Source: a virus
DNA length: 36,987 nt
Strand: one strand, 5' to 3'
IMG/VR virus record: IMGVR_UViG_3300030107_002918
Span: 1-36,987 of that record
Shown here piece by piece: positions 10,073-36,987 of this stretch; position 1 is the stretch's first letter, and every line of letters starts with the position of its first letter. A program made the position numbers and the translations under genes. Below the pieces are notes generated by a model. The model worked only from the letters and a program-made list of their open reading frames with translations, had not been told where the DNA came from and did not search any database.

Positions 10073-10082
10073 ATTATATCTA

Positions 10083-13000
10083 TTACGGTTCAACTATTGT
10101 AAATTCAATTGCGTCGTTGTAATCCGTACTTCCTGTACCACCGTCCCAATACAACCAATCATTTGCTGCGTATCCATGACATTTAATTCTAGCTCTTAAG
10201 CCTACACCAACAAAACTAGTGCCATTATCCGTATCGTATGTGGCCATATCAAATGAATGTCCAGTTGGTTTTCCATTTCCTCCTGTAACATTAATATTAT
10301 TACTAAAATTATCTTGATCAGTTACATGTATAACAGCTTGCATTGAGTTTCCGCTAACGTGGCAACCAGGATCTTGGTCCCAATTAAACGTTACAAACCC
10401 TGCAACACTTACGTCAACAAAATCGGAATCTGTGCACACTAGATTACCGGTGCATGGATCTACTGCTGGATCAAGCAAAGTTATACAAGATGTTGGATCA
10501 GTGTCAAGATCAGCATTTGGATCATACTCTGCATATGCTGGATCAATACAACCAGCATATAAACATGAACCATCATCAGCAGAAACCGATGGGTTATAAT
10601 TTACAGCTGTTGGATCCGTACATCCATATGTATATGGAATACAAGAACCATCATCACATGTAGCTGCTCCATTATAGTTTGATTGCGTTTCATCTGTACA
10701 TCCATATACACAAGGAATACAACAACTATCCCAACCAGTGGCTTGAACATAATTTCCATCGTTTATATCGTGACCATTACAATCAACTGTTGATGAAGCG
10801 TTGTAATTAGAAGCACCTGTATCAGTACAAGGGACGGAGCCAACTAAAGTGAGACAATAATTAGCATTATCAGGGCAAGTTACAGTTTCATCATATTCAT
10901 TATACGAATCATCATCACAACCGTATACACAAGGAATACAACAACAATTATCTACACCATCATTGTCTTGACCTGGACACTCAGTACAAGGAATATACAT
11001 TGACACGTTAGCGTCTCCCACGTAGTTACTATGTAATTGTGACCCTAAGGTATCACTTCCTACAGTACAACCAACTTGCATAACCGCTAGACTAATACAA
11101 GATCCATCATCTGTGTTCGCTTGTGGATTATAATTACCCATAGCATATCCTAAACCAGCTCCACAAGGCGCGGTAGAAACACCATCTGCACAAAATCCAT
11201 TTACATCAACATTATCACCAGGCGAGTTGTCAGTACAACCATTAACCGTGATATAAAAGCAGGAACCATCATCTGTGTTAGCTGTATAATCGTAATTATT
11301 AGCAAGTGGATCAGTACAACCGTTAACAACGGGCACACAGTTACCACTATCAATATTTGCGCTAGAATTGTAATTAAATGCTGTAGCATCCATACAACCA
11401 ATAATATCATATGTACATGAACCATCGTCTGTATTTGCTCCTGGAGTTGTGTTATTAGCGAGGTTATCTGTACAACCCGTTACAATTGCGATACAACAAT
11501 TTGCACAAGGCGTGTTAAAGTCAACTTGTGGATTACCAATAGGCGCCACGTAATTAAACTGAGTATCATCCATACAACCTTCAATGATTGGATAACAAGA
11601 CCCGTCATTTGTATTCGCGTTTGGATCATAGTTAAACGAACTAGGATCAGTACATCCATAAGTGTAGGGAACACATGAACCGTCGTCACTAGTACATGTT
11701 ACACAATAATTATAAGCACTAGGGTCCGTGCAACCAGCAGGACCAGGCCAACAACTCCCGTCATCAACCGTAGCTGTAGGATCGTATTCACCTGATAACG
11801 AATCTGTACAGCCAAGTATAACAGCTTGTCCAGAACTAGAAAATCCTAACCCTTGTATAGAAAATTCAGATGTATCTAAAAAGTCTCCTTGACCTATATC
11901 TTGACCACCTCTAATCCAATTGAACCATTTATTCTCTTTATCAATAAACTCTTTCATTGTACCGTCTTGAAGATCGGTGTTTATTTTTTCTACTTTCCAA
12001 CCTAGTTTTGGGTGGTTATCATAATAATCTTGTCCAATAATAACGTTATCTATTTTATGCACGTTAGTTAAATCTTCTATAACGTTAGCTTGTGATCCTT
12101 CGTAGTTTAAAGTTTTAAATCTCTTAACAGATCCTTGATCACCGTTAAACATTACTTTAACCATAGAATACGCATCTTTACCGTAGAATCTATTTCTAGC
12201 TGTACTGAAACTTATCTCTGTGCCAAGCGAAACCCAAACACCCGCCGCCGCGAAGTTAGTGCTTGTTCCAGATAACCCAATATTACACAAGCCAGCATCA
12301 CAAGCAACACTTTCAACTCTTGTGTCTATTGGTATTCCGTTACCGGTCACATTCATACCTTCTAATATAACACCTAAACCATCATTTACCTGTATAGTTG
12401 TTAATCCATTAGCAGTTGTTGTTGTTAATCTTTTTAAATTAATATCTAAACTATGTTGATGTGCTTCAGCGTGATTAGTGCCTAAATATGGGACACCAAA
12501 AGGATCATTGCCTGGAGCGGCATTATACGCATTAGAAGGAAAGGTATAATAAATATTTTTATGACTAACACCTCCTTGTTGTATAAAACTTTTAAAACTA
12601 ACCCAACCTCTAACTTTTTCCGCATAACTAATAGTGTAGGCAAATGGATTACCATCTTGATCTTCTGTTTCTACAGTTAAATTATACTGACTATCTCTAT
12701 CGTCATGGCTGCCAATTAAAGAAGTTGAAAACCTAAGATTATCTCTAAACCAATCTTTCATACCAGCATCTGATATTGGTGTTAAACCATCTTTTGATAA
12801 TCTTAATACAGCACCTCTATCTTTATCTGTAAAATATACTCTATAAGATTCCGATGCAAACGATTCTGGATTTCTTGACATTCCATATTCACCACTGAAT
12901 GGTATTGATTGTCCTAGTACTGCTTGATTAGAGGTTACATTTGTATTTCCATCCGCATTAAATAAAGCGTCTTTTTTAGCTAATATTTTAAATACTTTAT

Positions 13001-16000
13001 TTTCGCAGAACGTTACTAAATCAGTATCTCTAGCGAATAACTTTTGTATACTACCATTAATAGGATTTAAATCCTTAGTGATTGGTTCTGCTTGTATAAA
13101 TTGATTTGTTCTGTTAATACCACTTGTAGAGTTATATATACCCGAGAATATTAAACCACTACCTTTTCTTTCTTCTTCATATTGCTCAGCTAAAGGCATA
13201 GAGGCTTTAACACCTTTATCTATAGTAACAGCATTATAATCATCTCTTATTCTATTTGATTCAACACCTGTACCAAACGAATAACAGTTAAAATAACCTA
13301 AACCATGTTTTACTTTATGTGTTTGGTCACTGGTAACCGCCTCTCCAACTCTATATATAGCTTGACCTATATCTTCAGTTATTATTAGATTAACCCATTC
13401 TGTATCATGTTGAACACCGTAATAACTACCTTCTCCATTCCAAAGCACCTTAACAGAAGTGCCAACAGGTATATTAGCTTCAGTACCATCGTTAAGTTGA
13501 GTTTTTCTATCTAAAAATACTAAATCGTCTTTTACATCACATACCCTCATCTCTTGATAACCATCTACAACAAACATAGATCCAACTTTTACTATTTCTT
13601 CACCTCTACCCGTGTAATCATCCCAGTTTGCCGAATAAGTATCATCTTCATCAGCACCAGAATTACCATCATCACCCACGCTATTAGCATCCCATCTATG
13701 GCGTTTTAATTGAACTGGAAAAGATGGACTAGCCGCGTAGTATATATCTAACCCAACATCTTCCTTTGGTTCTGTTTCCCAAATAGCAGGATTATTAGTC
13801 ATTTCTTTTCTCCTATCGTCACCCGTGTATTGAGATACTATTTCTATAGTCGTTTCGTTTAAACCTCTTTCGTGTAAACCTATGTAAGCGTTTGGATTAC
13901 TATTATACCAAGTTTGAGTTGTTAAACTACCCGCTGTAATTTCCGCCGCATACTTAGTATTATATTCTTCGTCGTACATATCTGGCTGCTCAGTTTTACC
14001 TCCTCCCGCTCCATTAGCAGCGTTCCAATAACTATTTAAATTGAAAAAATTTATATTATCAGGAGTACCACCATCAGCAGCTGTAATAGTGCCATCATCA
14101 GCAAGCGAGGTCCAGTAACTCTGTCTACCACGTTTTATATTTGATTTACCTTCAGCGTCTACGTGGTTAGTTATAGGGTGGAAAGAGTTAGGTCCTTCAC
14201 TACCTATTATTTTATCTAATGTTAGTGTATATCTAACTCTACGATTTAAAGGTGATCCACCAGTTAGCATATACCTTTCTTTTTTTGGTTCATGCTCTCT
14301 CATTATCATGTCTGAGTAAAAAGCTACTCCATTAGCTAGGTGTATATCTCTTTCTTTACTTCCATGAGGTGGTATTAAACCACTCATTGCACCACCACCA
14401 CCTTTAACTTCCCAATTATCGTCTTTATCAATATAACTCCAACTACCACAAGGTTTTTCCCAGTTCCAAATATGTTCTTCAACACCAACGTTTGTTACTG
14501 TATATATTGTTTGATCTGGATCTTGTTTGAATCTAAATGTTGCTCCAACTTTAGCTATTGCCTCACCAAATTTCATTTCTGTAGGTTGATGTCTAGATGC
14601 TAATACTGTATTCGTTTGTCCTTGAGGTATATCTGGTCTTCCTATACCCCAAAAAGATAAGTGTATATAAGATTGTTTACCATCGTCCCATATACCGTTA
14701 CCACTACCACCTTGAGCAGCTCCAACTTTATCAAAAAACCATCTATCAGGACTAAAACGACCTAAAGGCCAAACAGCCTTGTCCTTCCATCTATCTCTAC
14801 CTGTCCATAAGTTATACCATTGTGCTCTTAATTTTGCTGTTGTTTCTAATGTCATTACAGGTTGACAACCTTTAGGCCAAGTAGTGCCATTCGCACATTT
14901 CGCAGCGGTAACTTCAAAATCAGATTGGTCACCCCAAATAGCAGGTAATATATATGGGTTTGCAGCGGTTTGATAACCACGATGCTCGCCTGGATCAACC
15001 ACATAATCAACATTGTTATATGACCATTTAGAAGGTGCTAATTCTGGATCACCATCTACACAGGTTAAAGTTTGACCGTTGTGACTACCACCAGTACCAC
15101 CATCATCACAACCTAGTGTTAAATCTAAAATACCAGGGGCTTCTATACCATCACCAGCGCTACTACCAGTTAAATAATCATAAGCATATGTTCCAGAGTG
15201 AGCGTCATTAAACTCTCCACCAAATCTACCGAAATGAACAGCTGGTTCCCAAGCGTGTGGATAGAAACTTGGCCAATCAGATTTTATATCTTGAGAATCT
15301 GGAAACTCCCATTCACCAGTTGAATTGTCTAAGAAATCTCTATATCTATTATTCCAATAATTACCATTAGGACCAGGGGTGTGGTATACACCATTCGTGT
15401 CTCTATGTGGGCCAAAAGGCCAGTGTTTACCACCTATATTTGGACTATCTTGTACGGCTCCACTGCTATCAATATATTGTGCAGTTTTACCCGCTATGTA
15501 TTTACTAAAAGAACTACAAGTATAATTTTCACCGTTATTTGGATTAGCTGTTCCACCATCCGTATTCCACTGTACTTGTGGTGGTATGTAATAAGTAGCA
15601 CTGTGATTCCAATCTTGTCTACCTGGATGTGCGGCGCATATATATTTTATATCTTTAGTTTGTGTTACCTGCCAATCATCAGTGCTTTCCGCTTGAGCTT
15701 CTACAATATTTGTTTCCACGTTAGCATCTCTAAGTATTTTAACAAAAAACCTACCTTCAAATTGAGACTTATCTCTTTCAACCATTGTTCTAGCTTCAAT
15801 TGACAATCCTCTACTCATGGATAAATTACCGTTAGGTTGACCAACTTCAAATGGTTTCAACACAGAGTCAGATTCGCAAAACAAAGCGTCTTGGCCAAAT
15901 GCGGTTTCTAAAGCTATTCTAGTTATTCTAACTGGAGCGCCTTCTACTTCTTGCTCTATACCATTGTCGTCAAAATAAGTTTGAGCTGGTGCGCCCATGT

Positions 16001-18224
16001 AACTTATATTAGCTATATTATACCAATCAGTTGTGTTAAACTTTTCTGAAGCCAACGAGTTGTAAGCGCTAGGTATACCAGGTGACTGTGTTATTCTAAT
16101 TTGAGCTTCACTAAAATCTAAAAGACCTTTTAATATCGTAGCGTCAAAATACTCAGCTATAACATCTATGTTCATACGGTTTGGTAATGGTAAACCAGTA
16201 GGATGTAACATACCAGTATCCCAACTACCTACATCTCCCCACCCAGGTGGAGGAAGCATAAATGGTACAGATCCCCAATATTTGGAATCTCTTTTTATAA
16301 ATTTAGGTGCATTAGCTGATATAGACAATACCTTATAGGTTACATCTAAATCAGTAAAAGCATTAGAATCGTGTTTCTTTTTTAATATTAAATTTGTTTC
16401 TTCGTTTATCTTATTTCTCTCTGAAGAAGGAAAAGATAGCCACACACCACCATCTTCTGCGTCGTACCAACGATCCATCGCGATATTGTAGTACTCGTTT
16501 GAAGTTTCTTTAACGTAAAAAGTATATGATTCAGCCCAATGTGGAGGATCATTTTTTAACTCTACATTTAATCTGTTTTGGTGCTGAGCGTTAGCTTTAG
16601 GTACATCTATAGATCCTGATTGAGATGTTAATATAGGGGTTTCTCTACCATATTTATCTCTATATACAACACCAATTTGATATGTTCTTTGAGATTTTAG
16701 GGATTTAGCTGGAAAACCTAAATCTGTATCATCATCTTCCCATGGATTTAATGATTCTATAGAAGTATCAAACTCTGGCTTAATAGCTATTCTATCGTTT
16801 GTTATTGGATCTATCTTTTCAATATTATATTGCTGCAAATAGTTAGCAAATATAAGTCTATTAGCTGTTATCTCTTGTGCTAAAGCTTTTCTAGGTACAT
16901 TATCCCAAGGTCTTAGTAGTTGGTTAGAAGCAACTACTTTATGTATCATTTCTGTTTTTATAGTATATTTACCAAAATGATTACCGTTTGCTGGTGTATC
17001 CCAGTAGTTATAACTAGCGCCTGTTTCAACAGGATCATCTGGTTTAAACGATTCTACTGTATATATATTAGGGGAGTTTGATTCTTTATATAATATATCT
17101 ATTTGAACAACATCTAACGGCATGTTACTAGGTCTCCAGTTTAAAACCCTTAACAATCTCATTTGATTTTCCATCCCTAAATTATATCCTTTTTTAGGTG
17201 AATAATCAAACTGCCCAGGTATAAACGCTGTTTCAGACCAAGGGGCGAATACAGAGTATTCTCCATCTTGATATTTATATCTATAAGAAAATTTAGGAAA
17301 TTTAACCCTGAATAAAGGTTCTGATTCTACTAATTCAACAGTGTAAACATCAGTCATTTGATGTGCTCCTATTGGAAATCTACCAGACATCGTCATAACA
17401 GTAGCCCAGATAAATTTATTTACACCTTCTCCGGGTAATTTGTAAGCCCCGTAAGTTGCTGTACCAGCACCACCTGGATCTATATCTTCACCGCCTGGAA
17501 ATTGATAAATACCACTACCTGGACTTGTTTCTCCATGAATACTATATGGGCTCCATTCTGGACTTATCCAATCTTCAACACCCGGGTTCTGGGGATCTTC
17601 TATCCATCTAGTTTGCTTAGGGTTTATTATTTGACATCTACACGTTGCACTTTTTTTGTTATTATAAATATCAATATAATCATGAGTTATAAGTAATTGA
17701 TCACCAGCTGCCCAATCTTCCCCTGACTCATCGATATCTATAGGAATAACAAGTTTATCCCCCGCTTTTTTCTGTGTCTTACCTTTTGTATAAAATATAC
17801 TTATATCGGTACCATCAACAGCTGTTCCTCTCTCATTTAAATGCGTGGTTACAGTTGCCATTTGAGTTGCTGGTTCTGAAACCCAGTTAGCTGACTTGTC
17901 CATGTAACCACCTAAAAAAGTAGCTTTTATAGCGGTACCCTCTGTTACTGGATTTACAGCAGCAAGTTGATCTTCAAATTGATACATTTCTAACGTAAGA
18001 GGCATTGTCGGTCCTTTACGTAAAACAGTCATATGTTTTTCTAATAAAAACTGAGGTCTACAAATCTGATTAGTATCACAGAGATCGTTAATTTGAGGTC
18101 TAGGTTCTCCTAATTCATTAAGTTTATCCTCCGTAGTATTAGCTATAGCAGTAACTAGGTTGGTGAGCATATTTACTATGATCTGTGCCATTTTTAACGG
18201 AGAAGATTTTTTATGTTTTGTCAT
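10083..18224 (-). CDS. Giant tail protein (2713 residues) with C-terminal Cys-repeat array
   Basis: It begins MTKHKKSSPLK (tag shared with two other large genes) and then LEKHMTVLRKGPTMPLTLEMY, which looks like the interior of a tail stabilisation/tubular protein family of Bacteroidota phages rather than a natural N-terminus. A conserved block FPKFSYRYKYQDGEYSVFAP...FIPGQFDYSPKKGYNLGM lies near residues 300-350. Near 1800 come FASESYRVYFTDKDRGAVLRLS, DGLTPISDAGMKDWF and RGWVSFKSF, typical of beta-propeller or fibre-like tail proteins. Large Trp/Gly/Asn-rich insertions fill the middle. Residues 2138-2580 hold about 14 GCTD-type repeats, followed by a 130-residue beta-rich end domain that may bind receptors. 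The ATG is 2 bases after the stop of the 382-residue gene, which seems to carry the missing N-terminal part. Tail role is probable; exact position in the virion is unknown. Confidence 0.7.
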   Translation of the reverse strand: MTKHKKSSPLKMAQIIVNMLTNLVTAIANTTEDKLNELGEPRPQINDLCDTNQICRPQFLLEKHMTVLRKGPTMPLTLEMYQFEDQLAAVNPVTEGTAIKATFLGGYMDKSANWVSEPATQMATVTTHLNERGTAVDGTDISIFYTKGKTQKKAGDKLVIPIDIDESGEDWAAGDQLLITHDYIDIYNNKKSATCRCQIINPKQTRWIEDPQNPGVEDWISPEWSPYSIHGETSPGSGIYQFPGGEDIDPGGAGTATYGAYKLPGEGVNKFIWATVMTMSGRFPIGAHQMTDVYTVELVESEPLFRVKFPKFSYRYKYQDGEYSVFAPWSETAFIPGQFDYSPKKGYNLGMENQMRLLRVLNWRPSNMPLDVVQIDILYKESNSPNIYTVESFKPDDPVETGASYNYWDTPANGNHFGKYTIKTEMIHKVVASNQLLRPWDNVPRKALAQEITANRLIFANYLQQYNIEKIDPITNDRIAIKPEFDTSIESLNPWEDDDTDLGFPAKSLKSQRTYQIGVVYRDKYGRETPILTSQSGSIDVPKANAQHQNRLNVELKNDPPHWAESYTFYVKETSNEYYNIAMDRWYDAEDGGVWLSFPSSERNKINEETNLILKKKHDSNAFTDLDVTYKVLSISANAPKFIKRDSKYWGSVPFMLPPPGWGDVGSWDTGMLHPTGLPLPNRMNIDVIAEYFDATILKGLLDFSEAQIRITQSPGIPSAYNSLASEKFNTTDWYNIANISYMGAPAQTYFDDNGIEQEVEGAPVRITRIALETAFGQDALFCESDSVLKPFEVGQPNGNLSMSRGLSIEARTMVERDKSQFEGRFFVKILRDANVETNIVEAQAESTDDWQVTQTKDIKYICAAHPGRQDWNHSATYYIPPQVQWNTDGGTANPNNGENYTCSSFSKYIAGKTAQYIDSSGAVQDSPNIGGKHWPFGPHRDTNGVYHTPGPNGNYWNNRYRDFLDNSTGEWEFPDSQDIKSDWPSFYPHAWEPAVHFGRFGGEFNDAHSGTYAYDYLTGSSAGDGIEAPGILDLTLGCDDGGTGGSHNGQTLTCVDGDPELAPSKWSYNNVDYVVDPGEHRGYQTAANPYILPAIWGDQSDFEVTAAKCANGTTWPKGCQPVMTLETTAKLRAQWYNLWTGRDRWKDKAVWPLGRFSPDRWFFDKVGAAQGGSGNGIWDDGKQSYIHLSFWGIGRPDIPQGQTNTVLASRHQPTEMKFGEAIAKVGATFRFKQDPDQTIYTVTNVGVEEHIWNWEKPCGSWSYIDKDDNWEVKGGGGAMSGLIPPHGSKERDIHLANGVAFYSDMIMREHEPKKERYMLTGGSPLNRRVRYTLTLDKIIGSEGPNSFHPITNHVDAEGKSNIKRGRQSYWTSLADDGTITAADGGTPDNINFFNLNSYWNAANGAGGGKTEQPDMYDEEYNTKYAAEITAGSLTTQTWYNSNPNAYIGLHERGLNETTIEIVSQYTGDDRRKEMTNNPAIWETEPKEDVGLDIYYAASPSFPVQLKRHRWDANSVGDDGNSGADEDDTYSANWDDYTGRGEEIVKVGSMFVVDGYQEMRVCDVKDDLVFLDRKTQLNDGTEANIPVGTSVKVLWNGEGSYYGVQHDTEWVNLIITEDIGQAIYRVGEAVTSDQTHKVKHGLGYFNCYSFGTGVESNRIRDDYNAVTIDKGVKASMPLAEQYEEERKGSGLIFSGIYNSTSGINRTNQFIQAEPITKDLNPINGSIQKLFARDTDLVTFCENKVFKILAKKDALFNADGNTNVTSNQAVLGQSIPFSGEYGMSRNPESFASESYRVYFTDKDRGAVLRLSKDGLTPISDAGMKDWFRDNLRFSTSLIGSHDDRDSQYNLTVETEDQDGNPFAYTISYAEKVRGWVSFKSFIQQGGVSHKNIYYTFPSNAYNAAPGNDPFGVPYLGTNHAEAHQHSLDINLKRLTTTTANGLTTIQVNDGLGVILEGMNVTGNGIPIDTRVESVACDAGLCNIGLSGTSTNFAAAGVWVSLGTEISFSTARNRFYGKDAYSMVKVMFNGDQGSVKRFKTLNYEGSQANVIEDLTNVHKIDNVIIGQDYYDNHPKLGWKVEKINTDLQDGTMKEFIDKENKWFNWIRGGQDIGQGDFLDTSEFSIQGLGFSSSGQAVILGCTDSLSGEYDPTATVDDGSCWPGPAGCTDPSAYNYCVTCTSDDGSCVPYTYGCTDPSSFNYDPNANTNDGSCYPIIEGCMDDTQFNYVAPIGNPQVDFNTPCANCCIAIVTGCTDNLANNTTPGANTDDGSCTYDIIGCMDATAFNYNSSANIDSGNCVPVVNGCTDPLANNYDYTANTDDGSCFYITVNGCTDNSPGDNVDVNGFCADGVSTAPCGAGLGYAMGNYNPQANTDDGSCISLAVMQVGCTVGSDTLGSQLHSNYVGDANVSMYIPCTECPGQDNDGVDNCCCIPCVYGCDDDSYNEYDETVTCPDNANYCLTLVGSVPCTDTGASNYNASSTVDCNGHDINDGNYVQATGWDSCCIPCVYGCTDETQSNYNGAATCDDGSCIPYTYGCTDPTAVNYNPSVSADDGSCLYAGCIDPAYAEYDPNADLDTDPTSCITLLDPAVDPCTGNLVCTDSDFVDVSVAGFVTFNWDQDPGCHVSGNSMQAVIHVTDQDNFSNNINVTGGNGKPTGHSFDMATYDTDNGTSFVGVGLRARIKCHGYAANDWLYWDGGTGSTDYNDAIEFTIVEP
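10485..11813 (-). repeat. Array of about 14 cysteine repeats (GCTD..NY..DDGSC)
   Basis: Residues 2138-2580 of the giant tail protein are built of units that start GCTD, GCMD or GCDD, contain NYN/NYD near the middle and end DDGSC. Regular units are about 21 residues plus a 1-5 residue linker. Several units are longer and carry extra Cys (for example units with PCANCC, CNGHD, DNCCC), which suggests additional disulfides or metal sites. A lone unit of the same kind occurs in the neighbouring 382-residue protein. This family is abundant in secreted proteins of marine Bacteroidota; the acidic DDGS core suggests Ca2+ binding by analogy with thrombospondin type 3 repeats, which is inference. Confidence 0.85.
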
Positions 18225-22607: not shown

Positions 22608-24068
22608 TTACTTCATTAACATGAAGTTGTTAGCACCTTGAGTAACTAAACATCTTTCAGAAAGCATGTGGATTTGCATCGCGTCAAGCGCTGAAGTAGC
22701 AGCACCAACCGAACCAGTAACCCATGTTTTCATTCTTCTGTCATCAGTTTGAGAAGCTCTATAACGAACATGTAAGAATGGACGTTTTAGATTTTTCCCT
22801 AACATTTGGTCATAAACAGTAGATGTACCAGCAGGTATAATAACCCCTCTGATTGCTCCAGCAGAATTAGCAGCATTAATACCACCTCTTGTAGCTAGAT
22901 CATTTAAGTATCTAAAGTCAGATTTATAGAAGTCATAAGAACCTCTTCTAAAACCAGAGAAACCTAAATTAAGTGCCATATCTTCAGAGTTGTTGAATAC
23001 ACCGTAAGATGTACCACCAGCACCATAAGAATTCATTGCAGCTAACATGTCATCCATTGCTAACGAAGTAGCTCTGTTTACAAACATCATGTTTTCTTCA
23101 ATAGCACCTTGCTTATCAAACTCTGCTAAAATAGCGTCAAACTCAGCTAAATCAGTAGCAGCGTTAACACCAGTAACACCAGAAGTAATATTACCTCTAG
23201 CTGTAATAGCAGCGAATAAACCTTCAGTACCAACAGTGTTAGTACCATCAGCACCATATAAGAAGTCCTCAATTACGTTACCAGCAGCGTCAAGACGATC
23301 AATCTCACCTTCTAACATTGCCATTTCTAAGTAATCAGTAAAACGTGCTCTTGTATCAGCTTCAGCTTTTAAGTACCATAAGTAACCTGATTGACCACTT
23401 TCACCAGTAGTTTCAACCCAACCGATTCTAGCTGTATCAGAACCTGATACTTCGTAGTAATCTTTCATTATGATTGGTTTGTTACTAAAAGTTTTGAACT
23501 GAGGCTCGTTAGCACCTCTAGTATCAGAGTGTGTACCACCTTTTTGGTTATAACCAACACCTTTTGCGTACTCAGAACCATAAACTAAAAGAGTAGTTGC
23601 ATAGTCAGCAGTGTTTCCAGAAGTTGGAATTGTTGTTGCGTCATAAGTTTTAACAGTAATATTTTGACCAGAGATAGCTGTTACTAAGCCTTTATAAACT
23701 CCAGTTGGAGCAGCTACGATAACAGTATCGTTTAATCTAACAGCATTAGTTGTCATTGTATTACCATCAATATCTTGCTGAATAGTGATAATGTCATTAG
23801 TATCGATATCACATTTGTAAGATAAATGTAAACGACCTTGCTCAGACCAAATAACTTGATCAGCTTGCATCGCTTCTTCAGCTCCTACTTGTGAAAGAAA
23901 ACCTGAAATAGTCCTAGGACCATAAATTTCAGCTTCTTTCTCCATAAGATCTGGTAAATATTGTTGAGCCCAACCCATGTCTGTGTTGAAGTCTAGGTAG
24001 TTTGTAACTAGTGTTTGCTGCGTTGCTGCAGGAATACTATTTAAACTACCACCACCTGTAATTGCCAT
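22608..24068 (-). CDS. Major capsid protein (HK97-fold, probable)
   Basis: 486 residues. It opens MAITGGGSLNSIPAATQQ, then NYLDFNTDMGWAQQYLPDLMEKEAEIYGPRTISGFLSQVGAEEAMQADQ. A beta-rich inserted region follows (residues about 85-155). The long helix region KAEADTRARFTDYLEMAMLEGEIDRLD (about 225-255) resembles the spine helix of HK97-type capsids. The C-terminus is HVRYRASQTDDRRMKTWVTGSVG ... ANNFMLMK. The length, the position after portal and scaffold, and a dedicated terminator all fit. The pattern resembles capsids of crAss-like and marine Bacteroidota phages from memory. Its leader (AATTATTAATT before ATG) has no Shine-Dalgarno even though the gene must be strongly translated, which supports a Bacteroidota host. 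Confidence 0.82.
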   Translation of the reverse strand: MAITGGGSLNSIPAATQQTLVTNYLDFNTDMGWAQQYLPDLMEKEAEIYGPRTISGFLSQVGAEEAMQADQVIWSEQGRLHLSYKCDIDTNDIITIQQDIDGNTMTTNAVRLNDTVIVAAPTGVYKGLVTAISGQNITVKTYDATTIPTSGNTADYATTLLVYGSEYAKGVGYNQKGGTHSDTRGANEPQFKTFSNKPIIMKDYYEVSGSDTARIGWVETTGESGQSGYLWYLKAEADTRARFTDYLEMAMLEGEIDRLDAAGNVIEDFLYGADGTNTVGTEGLFAAITARGNITSGVTGVNAATDLAEFDAILAEFDKQGAIEENMMFVNRATSLAMDDMLAAMNSYGAGGTSYGVFNNSEDMALNLGFSGFRRGSYDFYKSDFRYLNDLATRGGINAANSAGAIRGVIIPAGTSTVYDQMLGKNLKRPFLHVRYRASQTDDRRMKTWVTGSVGAATSALDAMQIHMLSERCLVTQGANNFMLMK

Positions 24069-25318: not shown

Positions 25319-27718
25319 TTACATACCCACATCAAAACCTCCTAATCTGTTGTTTGTAGATTCAAAGTTTTGAGAAGGTTTTCCATTTTCTTTTTGATCA
25401 ATCATCGCTGATTGTTGAGAAGCTTGCATTCTAGCTCTTTCGTCTTTACGATTTTCAGCTAATAATTGTGTCTCTGTTTTTGTTTTAGATTCTAATTGTT
25501 TTAATTGCATAGCGTATTGAAACTCTAACTGCATTAATCTTTCTTTGATTGAAGCCTCTTGATCTAAAGCTTGTGCTTTACCATCTATCTTTAATTGTTC
25601 TAACTGCTTTTGTGTTTCAACCATAGATCTATTTTTCTTAATCTCAGCTTCTGAAGCTGCTTCAGCTGCTTTAGCTTGAGCCTCTCCCTGCGCTGCGGTT
25701 TGTTCTAACTGTCTCTGTTGATCTTCTTCACCCTTTCTTTTACGCCTTATTTTTAATAATTGATTCGCTAGTTTAACATTTTTAATAGCTCTTAAATCTA
25801 TAGCGTCTTCTAATTCAATACTACCTTGACTAAGTGCGCCACCTATATTGTTTTCTAACATAGCTTTTTCTTCTTCATCTGGTTCTAATTCTAAAAATAT
25901 ACCAAAGTCATATAAATGTAAATTTGACATTTCTTGAAGTGTAGCTACATTATGAGCACCTATAGATTCTATAAAAGCGTTTTTAGTTGGAGAATATTCT
26001 ATAATATCAGATATTCTGAGAGATAATTGCTCAGCTATTTCAGCTGTTAAAAACATACCACTATTAAGTATATGTCTTGTAGCCGTGTTACTATTTGCTG
26101 CCGCCATTTTTTGCACACCAACCAAAGATCTTTCTGCTGGTGTAGAACCATCTGTGGCTTCGTTTAATCCAGTCACATCTCTTATCATTTGTAGATAATA
26201 ATTATAAGTCTGTATTAAACTTTGCATTTTAGCACCAGAAGCCTGCCCGTTATTTAGTTCTTGTATCGGTATTTTACCTGGGTTACCATCACCCTCAGCA
26301 GTGAATGATCTACCAACTATACTACCTGTTTGAAAGAACATGTTTAAAGCTTCTTGTGGATTATAGTTTGTACCATTACCTAAATCAACTTCAGCTAAAC
26401 CATCAACGTCAACAAATATACCATCAGGAGTCATTCTTGATAACACTTGTTGTATTTTTAAATGTGTCAATTGAATCATATCAGCAAAACCTGTGATACG
26501 ATTAACCAACGAGTCGATTCTACCCTCGTACATTCTAGGTGCAACTATAGCGTAATTCATTTTAACCTTAGTGTAATCACTTTTAGGTCTCATCATATTC
26601 CTAGCTTTTTCCCACTTCAACAACTTATCAGTACCTAACACGTAAGCACCTTCATATAAACACTCTAAATTTCTAGACAGTTTTTCATATCTTTCGTTTT
26701 CTGGTAATTTATCATCTTTAGCTATAGCTTTATCATTACCACTTCCCATTTTTTTAACTTTATAAACTTCATTCATATAAGTTTTATAGTTAAAATACAT
26801 TATGTCAACTTTGTTTTCGTCAGCCTCCATGTTAGTATTAACACCATTATATCCACTATATTTGGTATGGGAACTTTTTGATGTAATCTCTTCTAGGTCT
26901 ACGTTTGTTAAAAATGGAAACTGCTTTTTTAATTCATTTACAGGTATTGTTTTTACTTCACCCACATAATATATATCGTCAAAGAAAGGTGATTCTGTAT
27001 AAGAGTAAACTAAATTAGCCGGATCAACGTAATCTATAACAACGCCTTCAGATGTGTTAAACGTGGTTTTAACGGCCCCAATACCGCAAACAACTAAATC
27101 ATGATAAAATCTTCTTTTTATTAAATCATATTGATTTCCACGCATTAACATGTTTATAGCTTGTTCTTCGGCTATTTCTATAGCTTGCTTATAATCTAAT
27201 TGCATATGTAATCCCAACTCCTCTTCAGTAGCAGGTAAAGATTCTACTTTACTTTCTTTTGTGTTTATATAGAAATTTTGCTGAACGAAGGTATCAAACT
27301 CTTGCATAGCCATATCATTCTGAATAGCCTTCATGTATTCAGTTCTTTTAACAACACCAAATGGATCTTGTGAATATGCTTTTATATCATATAGTCTTTC
27401 AGCGATACCATTAACAACTATATCTACAAATTTAGATATAATAGGCACAGGTGTCCAATCTAAATTTAAATAGGACAAATCACCATTTATAGATAACTCA
27501 TCCTTATACTTTTGTACTGATTGTTCTCCTCTAGCATATAAACGTAGATTATGTATTCTAGAACCGTTATGATTATATCTATTATTAGCCCCGTATGTTT
27601 TTCCGTACCACTCGTGTTGAATAGCTTTAGCTACTTTTAAGCCATAATCATAGCTCATTTTCTCTAAATCACTAACAACTTGACTAGGAAAGTTTATATT
27701 TATAACTGATTCAGCCAT
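25319..27718 (-). CDS. Portal protein
   Basis: 799 residues. The N-terminal half has RLYARGEQSVQKY..., LDWTPVPIISKFVDIVVNGIAERLYDIKAYSQDP and KRTEYMKAIQNDMAMQEFD, and further HDLVVCGIGAVKTTF...YVDPANLVYSYTESPFFDDIYYVGE, the pattern of portal proteins of crAss-like and other large podoviruses (DNA-translocating ring at one capsid vertex). The middle has AIVAPRMYEGRIDSLVNRITGFADMIQL. The C-terminal 150 residues are Gln/Lys/Glu/Ala-rich coiled coil (about 650-770), such as a portal barrel or tail could form. It lies between TerL and the scaffold-like gene, the standard order, and starts 2 bases after the TerL stop. The assignment rests on length, position and recalled motifs. Confidence 0.8.
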   Translation of the reverse strand: MAESVININFPSQVVSDLEKMSYDYGLKVAKAIQHEWYGKTYGANNRYNHNGSRIHNLRLYARGEQSVQKYKDELSINGDLSYLNLDWTPVPIISKFVDIVVNGIAERLYDIKAYSQDPFGVVKRTEYMKAIQNDMAMQEFDTFVQQNFYINTKESKVESLPATEEELGLHMQLDYKQAIEIAEEQAINMLMRGNQYDLIKRRFYHDLVVCGIGAVKTTFNTSEGVVIDYVDPANLVYSYTESPFFDDIYYVGEVKTIPVNELKKQFPFLTNVDLEEITSKSSHTKYSGYNGVNTNMEADENKVDIMYFNYKTYMNEVYKVKKMGSGNDKAIAKDDKLPENERYEKLSRNLECLYEGAYVLGTDKLLKWEKARNMMRPKSDYTKVKMNYAIVAPRMYEGRIDSLVNRITGFADMIQLTHLKIQQVLSRMTPDGIFVDVDGLAEVDLGNGTNYNPQEALNMFFQTGSIVGRSFTAEGDGNPGKIPIQELNNGQASGAKMQSLIQTYNYYLQMIRDVTGLNEATDGSTPAERSLVGVQKMAAANSNTATRHILNSGMFLTAEIAEQLSLRISDIIEYSPTKNAFIESIGAHNVATLQEMSNLHLYDFGIFLELEPDEEEKAMLENNIGGALSQGSIELEDAIDLRAIKNVKLANQLLKIRRKRKGEEDQQRQLEQTAAQGEAQAKAAEAASEAEIKKNRSMVETQKQLEQLKIDGKAQALDQEASIKERLMQLEFQYAMQLKQLESKTKTETQLLAENRKDERARMQASQQSAMIDQKENGKPSQNFESTNNRLGGFDVGM

Positions 27719-27720
27719 CT

Positions 27721-29937
27721 TTAATTTTTAATTATTTTACTTGTCATACTGCTTTGATCATATTTTGCAAAATTTATATCCACAGGTGTTCTTTCTATTT
27801 TAGCGTTTGGTGCGTAAAGATGCTTATTGTTGGCCATTATTGCTAGGCCAGAACTTATAGTTGCGTCAAACTTTGTTCTTTTTGTTATGTCAAATCTACT
27901 CCAATCGTTTAACAAATCGTTAAAATATACATTACCAATCCCACCGTCTTGCATAATACCAACATGATCTTGTATATACATTTCAATTGCTGCAGCGTGC
28001 GCTTGTTTTATATCTTCACTAGAGTTTGGTATACCACCAACTTCTTTTTCAGCTACAGATAACTTGTTCCAAACCTTATCAGGTCTGTTCATACTAAATC
28101 CTCTATAACCTCTTCTTCTTAAGTAATACAACAATCGAGGTTTATTATTCTCTGCAAGTATTGGCATACCGTAAAAAACTAAAGCCATTAATACGTCTTC
28201 AAAGAATATTTCAGCTGTAGGTGGTCTTGATAGATATTCTAAAAAGAAACTACTACTAGGTGCGTCTTCCATGCTAAATTTAGTTAATCCATGTAAAGCA
28301 CCTTTAGAACCTCCACCATCTACAGTTCCTGATATATCGTACGAGTCACAACCAAAAGCTCCTACATGCTCATTACCAGGATATTTAATACCATTTTTTA
28401 ATATAACATTGTTTTGCATATATGATGGAGGCGTCCAACTTAGTTTAAATCTTCCTTTTGGATCTGGATAAAATATTACTTGTGTATCTTTTATACCGTT
28501 AACCCATTGAAAATTACCTGTAGTAATGCCTAGTGTTCTAGACATTTCTTCGTTGTAATCTATTTGCTCGTATATTTTTACTAAATTAAATATACTGTTT
28601 CTTGTCTCATCTCTAAACGCGTGTTCTGTAGTTCTAGGAAACTGACGGTAAAACTCGTTTAAAGCATCGTGATCTCCTTTTAAACCATCAGCTTCGTTTT
28701 GCCAATTATCTATTACGCCTACATCTATTAATTCACCATCTGGTGCGAGTCTATCGACATCAGGAGTATTAAAAACTGGAACTCCGTACTCGTCAATAAA
28801 TCCTTCGTAGTTCCATTCCATTGGGATAAACAAAGAATATAAGCCAGATTTTGTTTGTCCATTTTTATTTCGCTGAGTGACGTCTGATGCATTATATAGT
28901 TTTTTAAAATTATCTCCACCTTTATCTAAAGCATTTGATGTTGATCCCATCATACACTTACCAACTATTCTACTACCTAATCTTAAACATGTTTTTGTAA
29001 CCCTCCAATTGTTTAATATATTATCTGGTCTTTCCCACTTACCACTTTCATCATGTACTAACAATGCTAGTTTTTCACCGTCATAACTATTGTCTCCTGT
29101 GTTTTTCCAATCAATCGTAGTATCCAGCCCTTTAATATCTTCCAGCTTTTCGTTTGCTGTAATTTTTTTTCTTGTAAACTTACTTGCAGGTACTCTATAA
29201 GCAAGTTCGGATTTAGGACGATCCATACCATCTTGGATAGGTTTAAAAAAGAAAGGGTAATTAATAGATATAGGAACAACTTTATCTGTAAACATTTTCT
29301 TTGCATCAGCACCTGTTTTAGATAATATACCATATCTACTATCACTTGCAAGAGTAGCTAAATTAACCGTTTCTGCAGATGACATAAAAGAAAACCCTGA
29401 TCTTCTGTTTTTTAGGTAGCACATACCGTAACATCTTTTGTCTGCTTTACAAGCTTCCCAAAATATAAAAAACAATCTATTTGCCTCTCTGTAATCTGGA
29501 GCACCCACATCAATCTTGCTCCATTGTAAATACATGTAGTGTGTACCTGTTATATACGTTGGCTCACCATTATTTATAAACCAAAAACCCTCGTCTCTAC
29601 GTTTAAATTCTTCGTCTATATAATCAAACCACCGTTCTTTTTGATCTTCCGGATAAGCTCTCCAATCAAATATGTTTTTTATTCTACTAAGTTCTTTTGG
29701 ATATTCAAATTTTACCCACTTATTTTTAGGGTTTTTATAAACATTTTTAGGTACTTTTGGTAAAGCTATAACTAATCCTTGTATTTCTATTATCTCACCA
29801 ATTTGACCAGTATGAGATATTACAATTATATCATGATCTTTATCATATCCATATTTCCATTTTTTACCCTTATTAAGTCTACTAATAGTAGTTCTTTTTA
29901 TAGGTTCAACGGTTTTAACTAAGTCTTGCTCGTACAT
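27721..29937 (-). CDS. terL: Large terminase subunit (ATPase-nuclease)
   Basis: 738 residues. The ATPase part shows a deviant Walker A, LKNRRSGFSF (Lys176 to Ser183), with its Lys at the front as in lambda gpA (KSARVGYS) rather than in a GKS/T. Walker B is LALLVHDE (Asp296, Glu297) and GSTSN (331-335) fits the coupling motif. PRTTEHAFRDE comes at about 434-444. The nuclease half has VGAFGCDSYDISG (Asp531), ILAENNK (Glu596) and KFDATISSGLAIM (Asp691), a D-E-D set consistent with the RNase H-like packaging nuclease. It cuts and drives DNA into the prohead through the portal. Its ATG overlaps the last base of the preceding gene's stop, implying translational coupling. Confidence 0.88.
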   Translation of the reverse strand: MYEQDLVKTVEPIKRTTISRLNKGKKWKYGYDKDHDIIVISHTGQIGEIIEIQGLVIALPKVPKNVYKNPKNKWVKFEYPKELSRIKNIFDWRAYPEDQKERWFDYIDEEFKRRDEGFWFINNGEPTYITGTHYMYLQWSKIDVGAPDYREANRLFFIFWEACKADKRCYGMCYLKNRRSGFSFMSSAETVNLATLASDSRYGILSKTGADAKKMFTDKVVPISINYPFFFKPIQDGMDRPKSELAYRVPASKFTRKKITANEKLEDIKGLDTTIDWKNTGDNSYDGEKLALLVHDESGKWERPDNILNNWRVTKTCLRLGSRIVGKCMMGSTSNALDKGGDNFKKLYNASDVTQRNKNGQTKSGLYSLFIPMEWNYEGFIDEYGVPVFNTPDVDRLAPDGELIDVGVIDNWQNEADGLKGDHDALNEFYRQFPRTTEHAFRDETRNSIFNLVKIYEQIDYNEEMSRTLGITTGNFQWVNGIKDTQVIFYPDPKGRFKLSWTPPSYMQNNVILKNGIKYPGNEHVGAFGCDSYDISGTVDGGGSKGALHGLTKFSMEDAPSSSFFLEYLSRPPTAEIFFEDVLMALVFYGMPILAENNKPRLLYYLRRRGYRGFSMNRPDKVWNKLSVAEKEVGGIPNSSEDIKQAHAAAIEMYIQDHVGIMQDGGIGNVYFNDLLNDWSRFDITKRTKFDATISSGLAIMANNKHLYAPNAKIERTPVDINFAKYDQSSMTSKIIKN

Positions 29938-30212
29938 TATTTAGATCTTCCCTCTGCGAATCCTTTGAAGACTTGTGCTTTCTTTTCTTCAGGTGTTTTT
30001 CCCTCAAGCATATTCTCTTCTTCTTTGATTCTATTAAGTATTTCAAATGCGTCAAATATAGCTAGTTTTTTAGTGGCTGCCGCGTTTTTTAATCTATCAG
30101 CTGATATATCATCATCACTATCAACGATAGGTTCTTTCGCAACTTTAATTAGTTCTTCAACTGCTTTCTGCCCAGCTTGGATTATACTCTTCTTCGTTTC
30201 CTTGGTATTCAT
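29937..30212 (-). CDS. Small protein before TerL, possible small terminase subunit
   Basis: 91 residues from the ATG at 30212 (MNTKETKKSIIQ). An ATG at 30257 would add 15 residues but deepen the overlap with the upstream gene from 56 to 101 bases, so I prefer the inner one. All helical: KAVEELIKVAKEPIV, a short acidic link (DSDDD), SADRLKNAAATKKLAIFDAFEILNRIKEEENML, then a charged end (KAQVFKGFAEGRSK). The SADRLKNAAATKKLAIFDAFEI block looks conserved in phage genes next to TerL. The position and size fit a small terminase that picks the DNA to package, but no helix-turn-helix is obvious, so another packaging helper is possible. The last base of its stop is the first base of TerL. Confidence 0.5.
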   Translation of the reverse strand: MNTKETKKSIIQAGQKAVEELIKVAKEPIVDSDDDISADRLKNAAATKKLAIFDAFEILNRIKEEENMLEGKTPEEKKAQVFKGFAEGRSK

Positions 30213-30747
30213 ATTTAATTGTAATAAAATTTGATAAAACTCTATATAGTCTTTCACTATCTACTATAAATTCATACTCACTATTTGGCGTAAAACCAAC
30301 TAATTCGTTAACTTTAACTGTATTGTCAGAATACTTAACAATACCTTGTAAGGGTTTTTCCACCTCTATATTAAATGGATTTCGCGCTTTTAAAGGTTTA
30401 ACAAAGCAATAACCTTTTGGAGCTATCCATTCTTTATCTCTTTTGTATAAAAAGATTTGATCGTGGTTTATAAAATAAGTAGACTCATTAAAATAACTTC
30501 TACTATTTCTTTCTACACCCTTGACATCGTTCCATCTTCTAAATACATTGTGATGCACTATAACCGTGTCGCCAGGTTTTATATCTGTATCACCAATCAC
30601 GGGTGTTGATATAACAATAGCTTCTCGGTTTACATACTTATGTTGATATATATCAGTGTTGAGTATTAACTCCCCATTATCTAACTTTTTAGTATTGTTA
30701 TATCTTTTTCCTTTTGGTGTTACAACAAAGTTGTAAACACTTTTCAT
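30157..30747 (-). CDS. Tandem GroES-like protein, putative co-chaperonin or head-folding factor
   Basis: 196 residues that read as two GroES-type folds. Half 1 (about 24-101): a VVT strand, then GELILNTDIYQHKYVNREAIVIS, then IKPGDTVIVHHNVFRR, the counterpart of VKxGDxVI in GroES, and YFINHDQIFLYKR. Half 2 (about 112-181): GYCFVKPLKA, PLQGIVKYSD, VGFTPNSEYEFIVDSERLYRVLSNFITIKYE, close to the final GroES strands (E-x-L-x-x-V...I-x-x-I). Both mobile-loop regions lack a clear Ile-Val-Leu tripeptide: half 1 has LILNTD and half 2 a shorter loop. So binding to GroEL cannot be claimed. Chloroplast Cpn20 has the same tandem design. It sits one gene before TerL, far from the phage's true GroES. It could instead be a virion or RNA-linked protein with a GroES-like barrel. 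Confidence 0.55.
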   Translation of the reverse strand: MKSVYNFVVTPKGKRYNNTKKLDNGELILNTDIYQHKYVNREAIVISTPVIGDTDIKPGDTVIVHHNVFRRWNDVKGVERNSRSYFNESTYFINHDQIFLYKRDKEWIAPKGYCFVKPLKARNPFNIEVEKPLQGIVKYSDNTVKVNELVGFTPNSEYEFIVDSERLYRVLSNFITIKYEYQGNEEEYNPSWAESS

Positions 30748-35446: not shown

Positions 35447-35704
35447 TTAATCTACTAGAACAACGTCACCATCACGAATAACTCTATAAAGATCGTCTTT
35501 CCATGATATGTCGTGTCCAGCGTGTTTATCGTAATATATCGTATCACCATCTTTTAATCCTTCAACTAAATTACCACACGATATTATTTTTGCTTTTAAG
35601 TACCTATTGTCAGTGTCAGTATCATCTGTCATTATAAGGCCAGCAACCTTTTTAGGTTCTGTTTTTATTTTATTTATTATTATATATCTATTGATCGCTT
35701 TCAT
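35447..35704 (-). CDS. groES: Phage-encoded co-chaperonin GroES
   Basis: 85 residues. It has the GroES order: strand NRYIIINKI, mobile loop (GLIMTDDTDTDNR) with a hydrophobic LIM tripeptide where GroES has IVL, LKAKIISCG, LKDGDTIYYDKHAGHDI (the GD.V.YDK.AG pattern), then WKDDLYRVIRDGDVVLV as the last strands. About ten residues shorter than E. coli GroES (97), as in many phage co-chaperonins. It would cap the GroEL ring encoded just upstream. It overlaps groEL by 17 bases, so translation is probably coupled. The order groEL then groES is the reverse of the bacterial operon. Which capsid or tail proteins depend on it is unknown. Confidence 0.85.
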   Translation of the reverse strand: MKAINRYIIINKIKTEPKKVAGLIMTDDTDTDNRYLKAKIISCGNLVEGLKDGDTIYYDKHAGHDISWKDDLYRVIRDGDVVLVD

Positions 35705-36987
35705 TCATTCTCATATTTGAAATTACACAATCTGCAGATATAATAGTTGATACTACGCTTACTGCGTTTTTTAATGCTGACTTAGTTACAAGTACTGGAT
35801 CTATTATTCCAGATTTAACCATATCAACTTCTTCGTTAGTTACAACATTAACGCCTAATCCCTTTTTAGGTCTTGGACTAGTTTGCTCCAAACCAGCGTT
35901 AGCTAATACGGTGTGAAACGGAGCTGTTATAGCTTTGAGTAGTATCTCTTCACCCACCGCGTTAGCGGTGATTTCCTGCGAGGCGTTTAATAATGCGACA
36001 CCACCACCTGGAACAATACCTTCCTTAAGAGCTGCTTTAGTAGCGTATATAGCGTCTTCAACTCTATCTTTCTTTTCTTTTAGTTCTACTTTTGAATCTG
36101 CACCTACTTTAATAACACCAACACATCCAGAAAGCATAGCTAATCTTTGTTGATGTTTTTTCTTGAGAAAAGGGTTTTTATCTTCTTTGTCTATTAACTT
36201 TTGTATACCTTTAACTCTATCTTTTAATTCTTCACTCGGTATATCAATAGTTAATACAGTATTTTTATCGTCTGTTATTGATGTATATGCTTCGCCTAAA
36301 CAATCAACATCTATTAAATCAAGATCATCGCCTAGTTCTTCGTTCATTATTGTAGCCCCAGTTAAAAACGCAAAGTCTTCACACGTGTCTATTTTAGTAG
36401 GACCAAAGCCTGGTAAGTCAATAATATTAACTTTTATATTGCCTTTTATCTTGTTCATTAATAAAGCAGCTTTTACTTGCTCTTCTACAGGCGCTACTAT
36501 TAACAACGATCTTTTATTTTTTATAACGTGCTCTAATACTTTTTGTATTTTTCTTATATTTGATATTTCAGAGCCAACTATAAGAACTAAAGGATTATCA
36601 AGTTCGCATATTTGCTTATCTTTATCGGTTACAAAGTGTGGGGATGTAAGTCCTGAATCTACTTGGACGCCGTCAACTATCTCGACGTATGTTTGTTCAG
36701 TTGGAGACTCTTCCATTAATACCACGCCATCTTTACCTACTTCAGTATAAGCTTCCGCTATAATCTTTCCTAGCTCTTCATCATTGTTACAGCTAATTGA
36801 ACTAACAGATTTCAGCATGTCGCCCTCGATCTTGACAGAAATCTTATCCAGGTAATCGTTTACTTTATCAAGTCCAGACTTAATACCGTCTTTAACTTGT
36901 CTAATAGTTACATTTTTTTCTCTACTATTAACTTCTTTTAGTAAAGATTCAGCAAGGACGGTAGCTGTAGTAGTACCGTCACCTGCC
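35688..36987 (-). CDS. groEL: Phage-encoded chaperonin GroEL (N-terminus outside window)
   Basis: 432 residues are visible. The first, AGDGTTTATVLAES, is the GroEL ATP-site signature (D87 GTTT in E. coli), so about 84 N-terminal residues lie beyond the edge. An inner ATG at 36818 is not the real start. Apical-domain features are VDGVQVDSGLTSPHFV and LIVGSEISNIRKIQKVLEHV; the equatorial return has VEDAIYATKAALKEGIVPGGGVALL, whose Asp matches E. coli D398 (ATP hydrolysis). The C-terminus ends MRMNESDQ with no GGM repeat tail. The expected total is about 516 residues, close to but shorter than bacterial GroEL (548). It probably folds head or tail proteins with the neighbouring GroES. Being in a compact phage gene block, it is a viral copy rather than the host gene. 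Confidence 0.9.
   Translation of the reverse strand, partial: AGDGTTTATVLAESLLKEVNSREKNVTIRQVKDGIKSGLDKVNDYLDKISVKIEGDMLKSVSSISCNNDEELGKIIAEAYTEVGKDGVVLMEESPTEQTYVEIVDGVQVDSGLTSPHFVTDKDKQICELDNPLVLIVGSEISNIRKIQKVLEHVIKNKRSLLIVAPVEEQVKAALLMNKIKGNIKVNIIDLPGFGPTKIDTCEDFAFLTGATIMNEELGDDLDLIDVDCLGEAYTSITDDKNTVLTIDIPSEELKDRVKGIQKLIDKEDKNPFLKKKHQQRLAMLSGCVGVIKVGADSKVELKEKKDRVEDAIYATKAALKEGIVPGGGVALLNASQEITANAVGEEILLKAITAPFHTVLANAGLEQTSPRPKKGLGVNVVTNEEVDMVKSGIIDPVLVTKSALKNAVSVVSTIISADCVISNMRMNESDQ

Follow-up and report, generated by a model that had tools for sequence, protein, structure and literature searches.

A marine phage lineage that encodes GroEL, an overlapping GroES and a probable third chaperonin-related gene

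The window analysed here is an entire virus record of 36,987 bases (IMGVR_UViG_3300030107_002918). At one of its ends lies a gene for GroEL, followed by a gene for the co-chaperonin GroES (Table 1). The groEL reading frame runs into the end of the contig, where its 5' end is lost, and 432 amino acids remain readable. The first of these aligns with A85 in E. coli numbering; thus, 84 N-terminal residues are missing, and these are visible only through complete homologues. The protein ends in SNMRMNESDQ, where a GGM tail is absent. An initial annotation had described a loss of about 84 residues, the missing tail, three GroEL motifs (the GDGTTT of the ATP site, the aspartate of VEDA and the GGG turn), and an intact GroES gene that overlaps groEL by 17 bases. 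All of these are indeed found. The overlap is consistent with translational coupling of the two genes.

Against the Pfam profile Cpn60_TCP1, the GroEL scores 134.5 bits (cut-off 34.3) over profile positions 59-488 of 490; this homology, above the curated cut-off, spans the equatorial, intermediate and apical domains. GroES scores 32.3 bits against Cpn10 (cut-off 21.1). The corresponding PHROG scores are 353 bits for groEL and 50 bits for GroES. The AF2 model of GroES is a confident Cpn10 fold (pLDDT 86.5), and its top 35 PDB matches in Foldseek are all Cpn10-type co-chaperonins, including T4 gp31 (1g31). The large neighbouring genes lie on the same strand, and include those for a holin, a tandem Cpn10-like protein, the terminase, the portal and head proteins.

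Table 1. Features of the chaperonin genes and of their phage neighbourhood, in window coordinates
Feature	Position	Strand	Basis
groEL, residues 85 to C-terminus (E. coli numbering)	35688-36986 (to 36987 at contig end)	minus	ORF, Pfam, PHROG
GroEL ATP-site stretch AGDGTTT	36966-36986	minus	motif; clade-invariant
GroEL apical helix EEQVKAALLMN, bearing the clade-wide L259K in the substrate/GroES-binding surface	36453-36485	minus	alignment
GroEL RVEDA, catalytic Asp (D398 equivalent)	36051-36065	minus	motif, alignment
GroEL GIVPGGG	36000-36020	minus	motif
groEL/groES overlap, 17 nt	35688-35704	minus	ORF coordinates
groES (Cpn10), intact, 85 aa	35447-35704	minus	ORF, Pfam, PHROG, AF2, Foldseek
GroES mobile loop, residues 14-33, GLIMT	35606-35665	minus	alignment, AF2 model
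Site of missing GroES roof hairpin, residues 44-52	35549-35575	minus	alignment, AF2 model
Two-domain (tandem) Cpn10-like protein, 196 aa, 5' of terL	30157-30747	minus	PHROG, AF2/Foldseek, profile
Tandem protein, N-terminal domain, Cpn10-like by predicted fold only	30421-30747	minus	Foldseek
Tandem protein, C-terminal Cpn10 domain	30196-30420	minus	hhalign to bacterial GroES
Candidate small terminase, between tandem Cpn10 and terL	29937-30257	minus	inferred from position
Terminase large subunit (terL)	27721-29937	minus	PHROG
Portal protein	25319-27718	minus	PHROG
Structural protein of the head/virion (52.6 kDa); its size alone makes it a possible client	22608-24068	minus	homology

Relatives and gene order

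Scans of IMG/VR deliver at least about 590 relatives of this GroEL and at least about 560 of the GroES. Across 171 relative loci (a set in which some contigs are counted twice and a few named phages are included), GroEL precedes GroES, the sole exception being an in-frame fusion. The two genes overlap by 1-17 nt in 166 of the 171, by 17 nt in 96, by 14 nt in 64, and by 1 nt in six. Because this order and overlap are near-universal, they are not random. Here, the initial description of a full pair owned by the phage, overlapping and with groEL first, is supported.

Three records show other arrangements. In the fusion (L045, ORF 2202-3933), a deletion takes in the GroES start and the greater part of its mobile loop; this is either a true fusion or an assembly artefact. 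In a contig that was counted twice (L048 and L149, positions 1425-1837), about 415 bases separate the two genes, which normally overlap. The record that holds L068 (G185, positions 10076-11419) matches GroEL in two pieces, profile positions 1-155 and 239-488, with a gap between; this copy is disrupted, shortened or misassembled.

The same annotation had taken a full phage pair to be rare, and this does not hold. As many as 241 phage records encode a GroEL relative, and pairs occur in Flavobacterium phage elemo, Maribacter phage Panino, ctfjg026, Cellulophaga phage phi38:1, Calle and immuto. GroEL followed by GroES is part of the annotation of elemo, can be seen in Panino and occurs in ctfjg026, as it does in hundreds of marine contigs; GroES comes first in phi38:1, Calle and immuto. 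GroEL was found in 36 of 78 phi38:1-like marine viral genomes, where it was placed with the GroEL of Cellulophaga phage (Nishimura 2017, PMC5332604), and the paper on Panino names both genes (PMC11590407). The pair is already known in related phages, and its occurrence as such is no new finding.

The terminase, portal and head protein ally the phage with phi38:1 (Pervagoviridae), phi18:3 (Pachyviridae), elemo, Panino and ctfjg026. These genes are shared in the same order, which places the phage in the phi38:1-like flavophage lineage. Besides this lineage, elemo (Elemovirus), Panino and ctfjg026 (MW202828) share with the window the order groEL-then-groES and a tandem Cpn10 gene by terL; however, their GroELs are only 33-37% identical to that of the window, and in Panino and ctfjg026 the two genes, as read here, do not overlap. 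Both phi38:1 and Calle encode GroEL, a single Cpn10 and a tandem Cpn10, but in the order groES, one gene, groEL.

Only four loci in the genome collection encode a close relative, all of them in MAGs (Flavobacteriaceae, Sphingobacteriales, Maricaulis and Woesearchaeota); these are probably phage contigs that were binned with cells. Because relatives were isolated on such hosts, Bacteroidota are the best guess for the host.

The window also encodes a 2,713-aa virion protein (10083-18224), with a weak match (E 0.006, below the cut-off) to the C-terminal domain of the muzzle protein of crAss-like phages, which hints at a relation to crAss-like tails. Two matches to a DxDxD-type polymerase motif in this protein both lie in acidic stretches, and are not convincing.

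A tandem Cpn10-like protein upstream of terL

The tandem protein matches phrog_13932, “co-chaperonin GroES.” Its C-terminal half aligns by hhalign with bacterial GroES (probability 95%, E 2e-8), and the same half of its orthologues in phi18:3, phi46:3 and phi38:1 scores over the Pfam Cpn10 cut-off. Judged from these profiles, the C-terminal Cpn10 domain is firm. The N-terminal half has no significant profile match to bacterial GroES (6%), and its likeness to Cpn10 is one of predicted fold only. Given the AF2 model of the protein (pLDDT 76.6), Foldseek returns as its best PDB match chloroplast Cpn20 (7ekq_R, E 4e-4, TM 0.51); the match is full-length, with 204 columns, and 28 Cpn10 chains come next. 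A direct profile comparison of the tandem family with the phage GroES family was not significant (5.9%). For this reason, the link between the two is drawn via bacterial GroES and the phi18:3 and phi38:1 orthologues. The tandem gene is a probable third chaperonin-related gene.

Chloroplast Cpn20 likewise holds two Cpn10-like domains in one chain, beside a single Cpn10, and the two proteins mix to a total of seven domains (PMC5780408; PMC3542282). The tandem protein differs in that a sequence-level match to Cpn10 is confined to its C-terminal half. Further, the apicomplexan Cpn20 keeps a roof and a mobile loop in both domains (PMC3542282), while the tandem protein does not.

In 239 of 268 loci, the tandem gene is found upstream of terL, at a distance of at most 700 bases. 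Large related contigs carry it in 29 of 29 cases, and GroEL in 27 of 29. Single and tandem Cpn10 are both encoded in phi18:3 and phi46:3, complete Pachyviridae genomes that have no GroEL. Because these two phages encode the lids without GroEL, such lids evidently need no phage ring beside them, and presumably sit on the host GroEL. This makes phi18:3 and phi46:3 natural test cases for a phage lid on a host ring. As for the neighbouring candidate small terminase, it is a 106-aa ORF with a GTG start, for which an internal ATG may fit better; it has no family match, and a homologue is found in 128 of the 171 loci that bear the groEL-groES pair.

Ratios of dN/dS (0.08-0.17 for GroEL, 0.09-0.20 for GroES and 0.10-0.19 for the tandem gene) point to strong purifying selection on all three. 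Their distances also vary together. Between GroEL and GroES, r is 0.72-0.82 in sets of up to 76 loci. In sets of at least 32 loci, the tandem gene correlates with GroEL at 0.71-0.77 and with GroES at 0.71-0.81; in two sets of 16-22 loci its correlations are lower, 0.42-0.64. In the same sets, r does not exceed 0.60 between any of the three and any other gene, those that lie between GroES and the tandem gene included. Across 22 longer regions, the pairs among the three genes give 0.72-0.75 (Mantel p = 0.0005 each), the tandem gene and terL 0.54, GroES and terL 0.63, and the portal about 0.2. The co-divergence of the tandem gene with GroEL and GroES thus exceeds linkage, though correlation does not prove contact, and different recombination rates could add to the correlations. 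In six of eight comparisons, the dS of groES (0.36-0.68) comes to roughly half the value of about 1.0 seen in neighbouring groEL, which may reflect recombination or constraint on synonymous sites.

The matched co-evolution of GroEL and GroES that had been proposed from the start gains measured backing in this part: their correlation is above that of the other genes tested, the tandem Cpn10 excepted. The missing GGM tail and the altered loop (LIM), on which the proposal was built, are not evidence for it.

The odds are about even that the tandem protein is a packaging or head component built on a Cpn10 fold, and not a co-chaperonin; this reading, of course, rivals only its part as a third component. 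Its gene always lies close upstream of terL, relatives occur in phages without GroEL, and the N-terminal half carries no Cpn10 sequence signal. Conversely, the tandem protein tracks GroEL and GroES better than it tracks its neighbour terL, and the annotation of the phi18:3 portal cites MS/MS proteomics, where that of the tandem protein cites sequence similarity only. On the competing view, whose likelihood is somewhat less than even, the tandem protein would add another part to the lid and might mix with GroES, as Cpn20 does with Cpn10.

Anatomy of the ring and the lid

The residues that bind and hydrolyze ATP are kept in the phage GroEL (D87, T89-T91, D398, G414-416 and D495), and T30 and D52 are present in its full-length relatives. 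Twenty positions of the ATP site were compared in 29 clade representatives. None of them varies within the clade, and 19 are as in bacteria, P33A being the sole clade-wide change. Hinge residue G192 and the D155-R395 salt bridge are also retained.

The positions of contact between rings behave differently. Positions 105, 109, 452, 461, 463 and 464 we take to be the ring-ring contacts, after E. coli GroEL and the SR1 mutant. Their mean entropy is 0.48 bits in bacteria, and rises to 2.5 bits in the clade. Positions that are conserved in bacteria and drawn at random have 0.53 bits in the clade, and none of 20,000 draws reaches 2.5 bits. The excess holds with two alignments and inside the equatorial domain alone. 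Further, the region of E434 is deleted in the clade. The combination of an invariant ATP site with contact residues that appear scrambled is a detail newly added here.

Given this loss of conservation at the ring-ring contacts, the phage GroEL is predicted, with somewhat better than even confidence, to work as a single seven-subunit ring. This is the simplest reading of the pattern; the six positions could also belong to an interface that was rebuilt rather than lost. The alternative is a double-ring GroEL/GroES of the conventional kind, no more than a copy of the host's own system that would boost folding capacity. The overall homology, the intact ATPase site and the retained salt bridge would all be expected of it. 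It is nevertheless the less likely reading, given the unconserved ring contacts, the loss of the R197-E386 contact (S or C and K stand there instead), a GroES without its roof hairpin, and a place deep in a phage clade that is not that of a recent host copy.

The apical binding surface carries changes that are clade-wide or nearly so: Y199L, Y203H, L234Q, L259K and V264M. Positions 234 and 259 bind both substrate and GroES in E. coli. Because L234Q and L259K alter such positions, docking of GroES onto the phage GroEL is not assured.

The GroES itself has a mobile loop of low confidence in the AF2 model, as expected of a flexible loop. It reads GLIM where GIVL is usual. In 41 relatives, G22-L23-I24-x-T26 is invariant or nearly so and position 25 varies. 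GLIM thus looks like a mild, lineage-wide variant in a loop of the normal type with its hydrophobic tripeptide present, and as a conserved variant it was rejected as a sign of co-evolution. The roof is another matter. GroES is nine residues shorter than that of Salmonella at the roof hairpin, which is absent in both the alignment and the AF2 model; the hairpin is missing lineage-wide, and kept in the GroES of Salmonella and immuto. T4 gp31 is also without roof loops, and their absence is believed to help it fold the 56-kDa gp23 (PMC6318259). Because gp31 lacks it too, the hairpin is not required in a working co-chaperonin. Both are phage-encoded lids of GroES fold; gp31, however, works with the GroEL of its host and its mobile loop is longer, while the GroES of the window has a phage GroEL beside it.

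Compared with bacterial GroEL-GroES, then, the phage pair keeps the domains, the ATP site, the hinge, the GroES fold and the mobile loop; it differs in its reversed gene order, the lost tail, ring contacts and R197-E386, the changed apical residues, and the absent roof. More telling than the GGM tail or the LIM loop are three features that the initial annotation did not mention: the loss of the hairpin, the loss of ring-ring contacts, and the two-domain Cpn10.

A proposed dedicated folding machine

The reading preferred here, with a probability of roughly 0.7, is that the phage encodes a dedicated folding machine of group-I type, a GroEL chamber with its cognate GroES lid, for phage proteins. 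Chamber and lid would be made together from the overlapping genes and, during infection, would fold phage proteins, probably late virion proteins. The GroEL would act as a single seven-subunit ring. With no roof on the GroES, the chamber may be wider or open at the top, like that under T4 gp31, and larger or differently shaped chains would fit into it; the apical surface may be retuned to a narrower set of clients. The tandem Cpn10 near terL would be a further part of the lid, possibly mixing with GroES into seven domains. The full assembly, in which a single-ring GroEL is closed by a hetero-oligomeric lid of roofless GroES and tandem Cpn10, an independent viral parallel to Cpn60/Cpn10/Cpn20, is a speculative and rather improbable sum of these parts.

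One candidate for a co-evolving client was rejected. The 486-aa head protein (22608-24068) does not track GroEL in the 22 longer regions (r = -0.05). Nor do its distances follow those of any other gene tested, with r near 0 or negative throughout; it looks as if it were swapped by recombination independently of the other genes.

The phage chaperonins of EL, OBP and AR9 work without a co-chaperonin (PMC9598537). They resemble the window in having a GroEL-like ring of phage origin, with single rings known there and predicted here. By analogy, the GroEL of the window might work alone, with GroES and the tandem protein serving as gp31-like lids on host GroEL, as the lids of phi18:3 and phi46:3 and the altered apical surface would allow. 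Yet the window encodes a GroES, and so is not of the co-chaperonin-free type; its similarity to these chaperonins is only remote (26% over part to AR9, against 38-45% to ordinary GroEL). Since groES overlaps groEL in nearly every locus, and the two proteins co-diverge, this reading is improbable, well behind that of a chamber with its own lid.

The nearest GroELs are those of other phage contigs, with up to 88% identity. The GroEL tree joins the sequence of the window and 33 relatives in one group (support 96). This lies within a broader group made up of phages only (support 96), to which phi38:1, Calle, elemo, Panino, ctfjg026 and immuto belong; long branches leave the inner order of the phage group unsure. 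The GroEL of the window groups with phi38:1, elemo and immuto, far from AR9. The GroELs of Vibrio phages adjoin that of Salmonella, and would be separate captures. Recent host contamination or a chimeric contig, against which a tree with bacterial and phage homologues had been suggested as a check, may be rejected as having next to no likelihood: groEL is cut by the contig end, but genes on one strand with phage neighbours, the same arrangement in more than 160 loci, a related contig (G184) that bears GroEL pieces at both ends like a circularly permuted genome, at most 45% identity to cellular GroELs (118 genomes of Bacteroidota and 60 of Pseudomonadota, not counting phage contigs in MAGs), and the placement deep in the phage clade all speak against it.

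What is added here to the known pair is the prediction that its ring is single and its lid roofless, together with a tandem Cpn10 that co-diverges with both. Phage chaperonins that have been studied to date fall into two kinds: those that use the ring of the host, as does T4 gp31, and those that have no lid, as in EL, OBP and AR9. Here, a common marine phage lineage with a ring, a matching lid and a third lid-like protein would offer a self-contained folding machine that has been little studied. Three questions could be tested on such a system: the reason for a virus to replace GroEL, the ability of a natural, lidded single ring to cycle, and the fit of a tandem lid to a ring of seven-fold symmetry.
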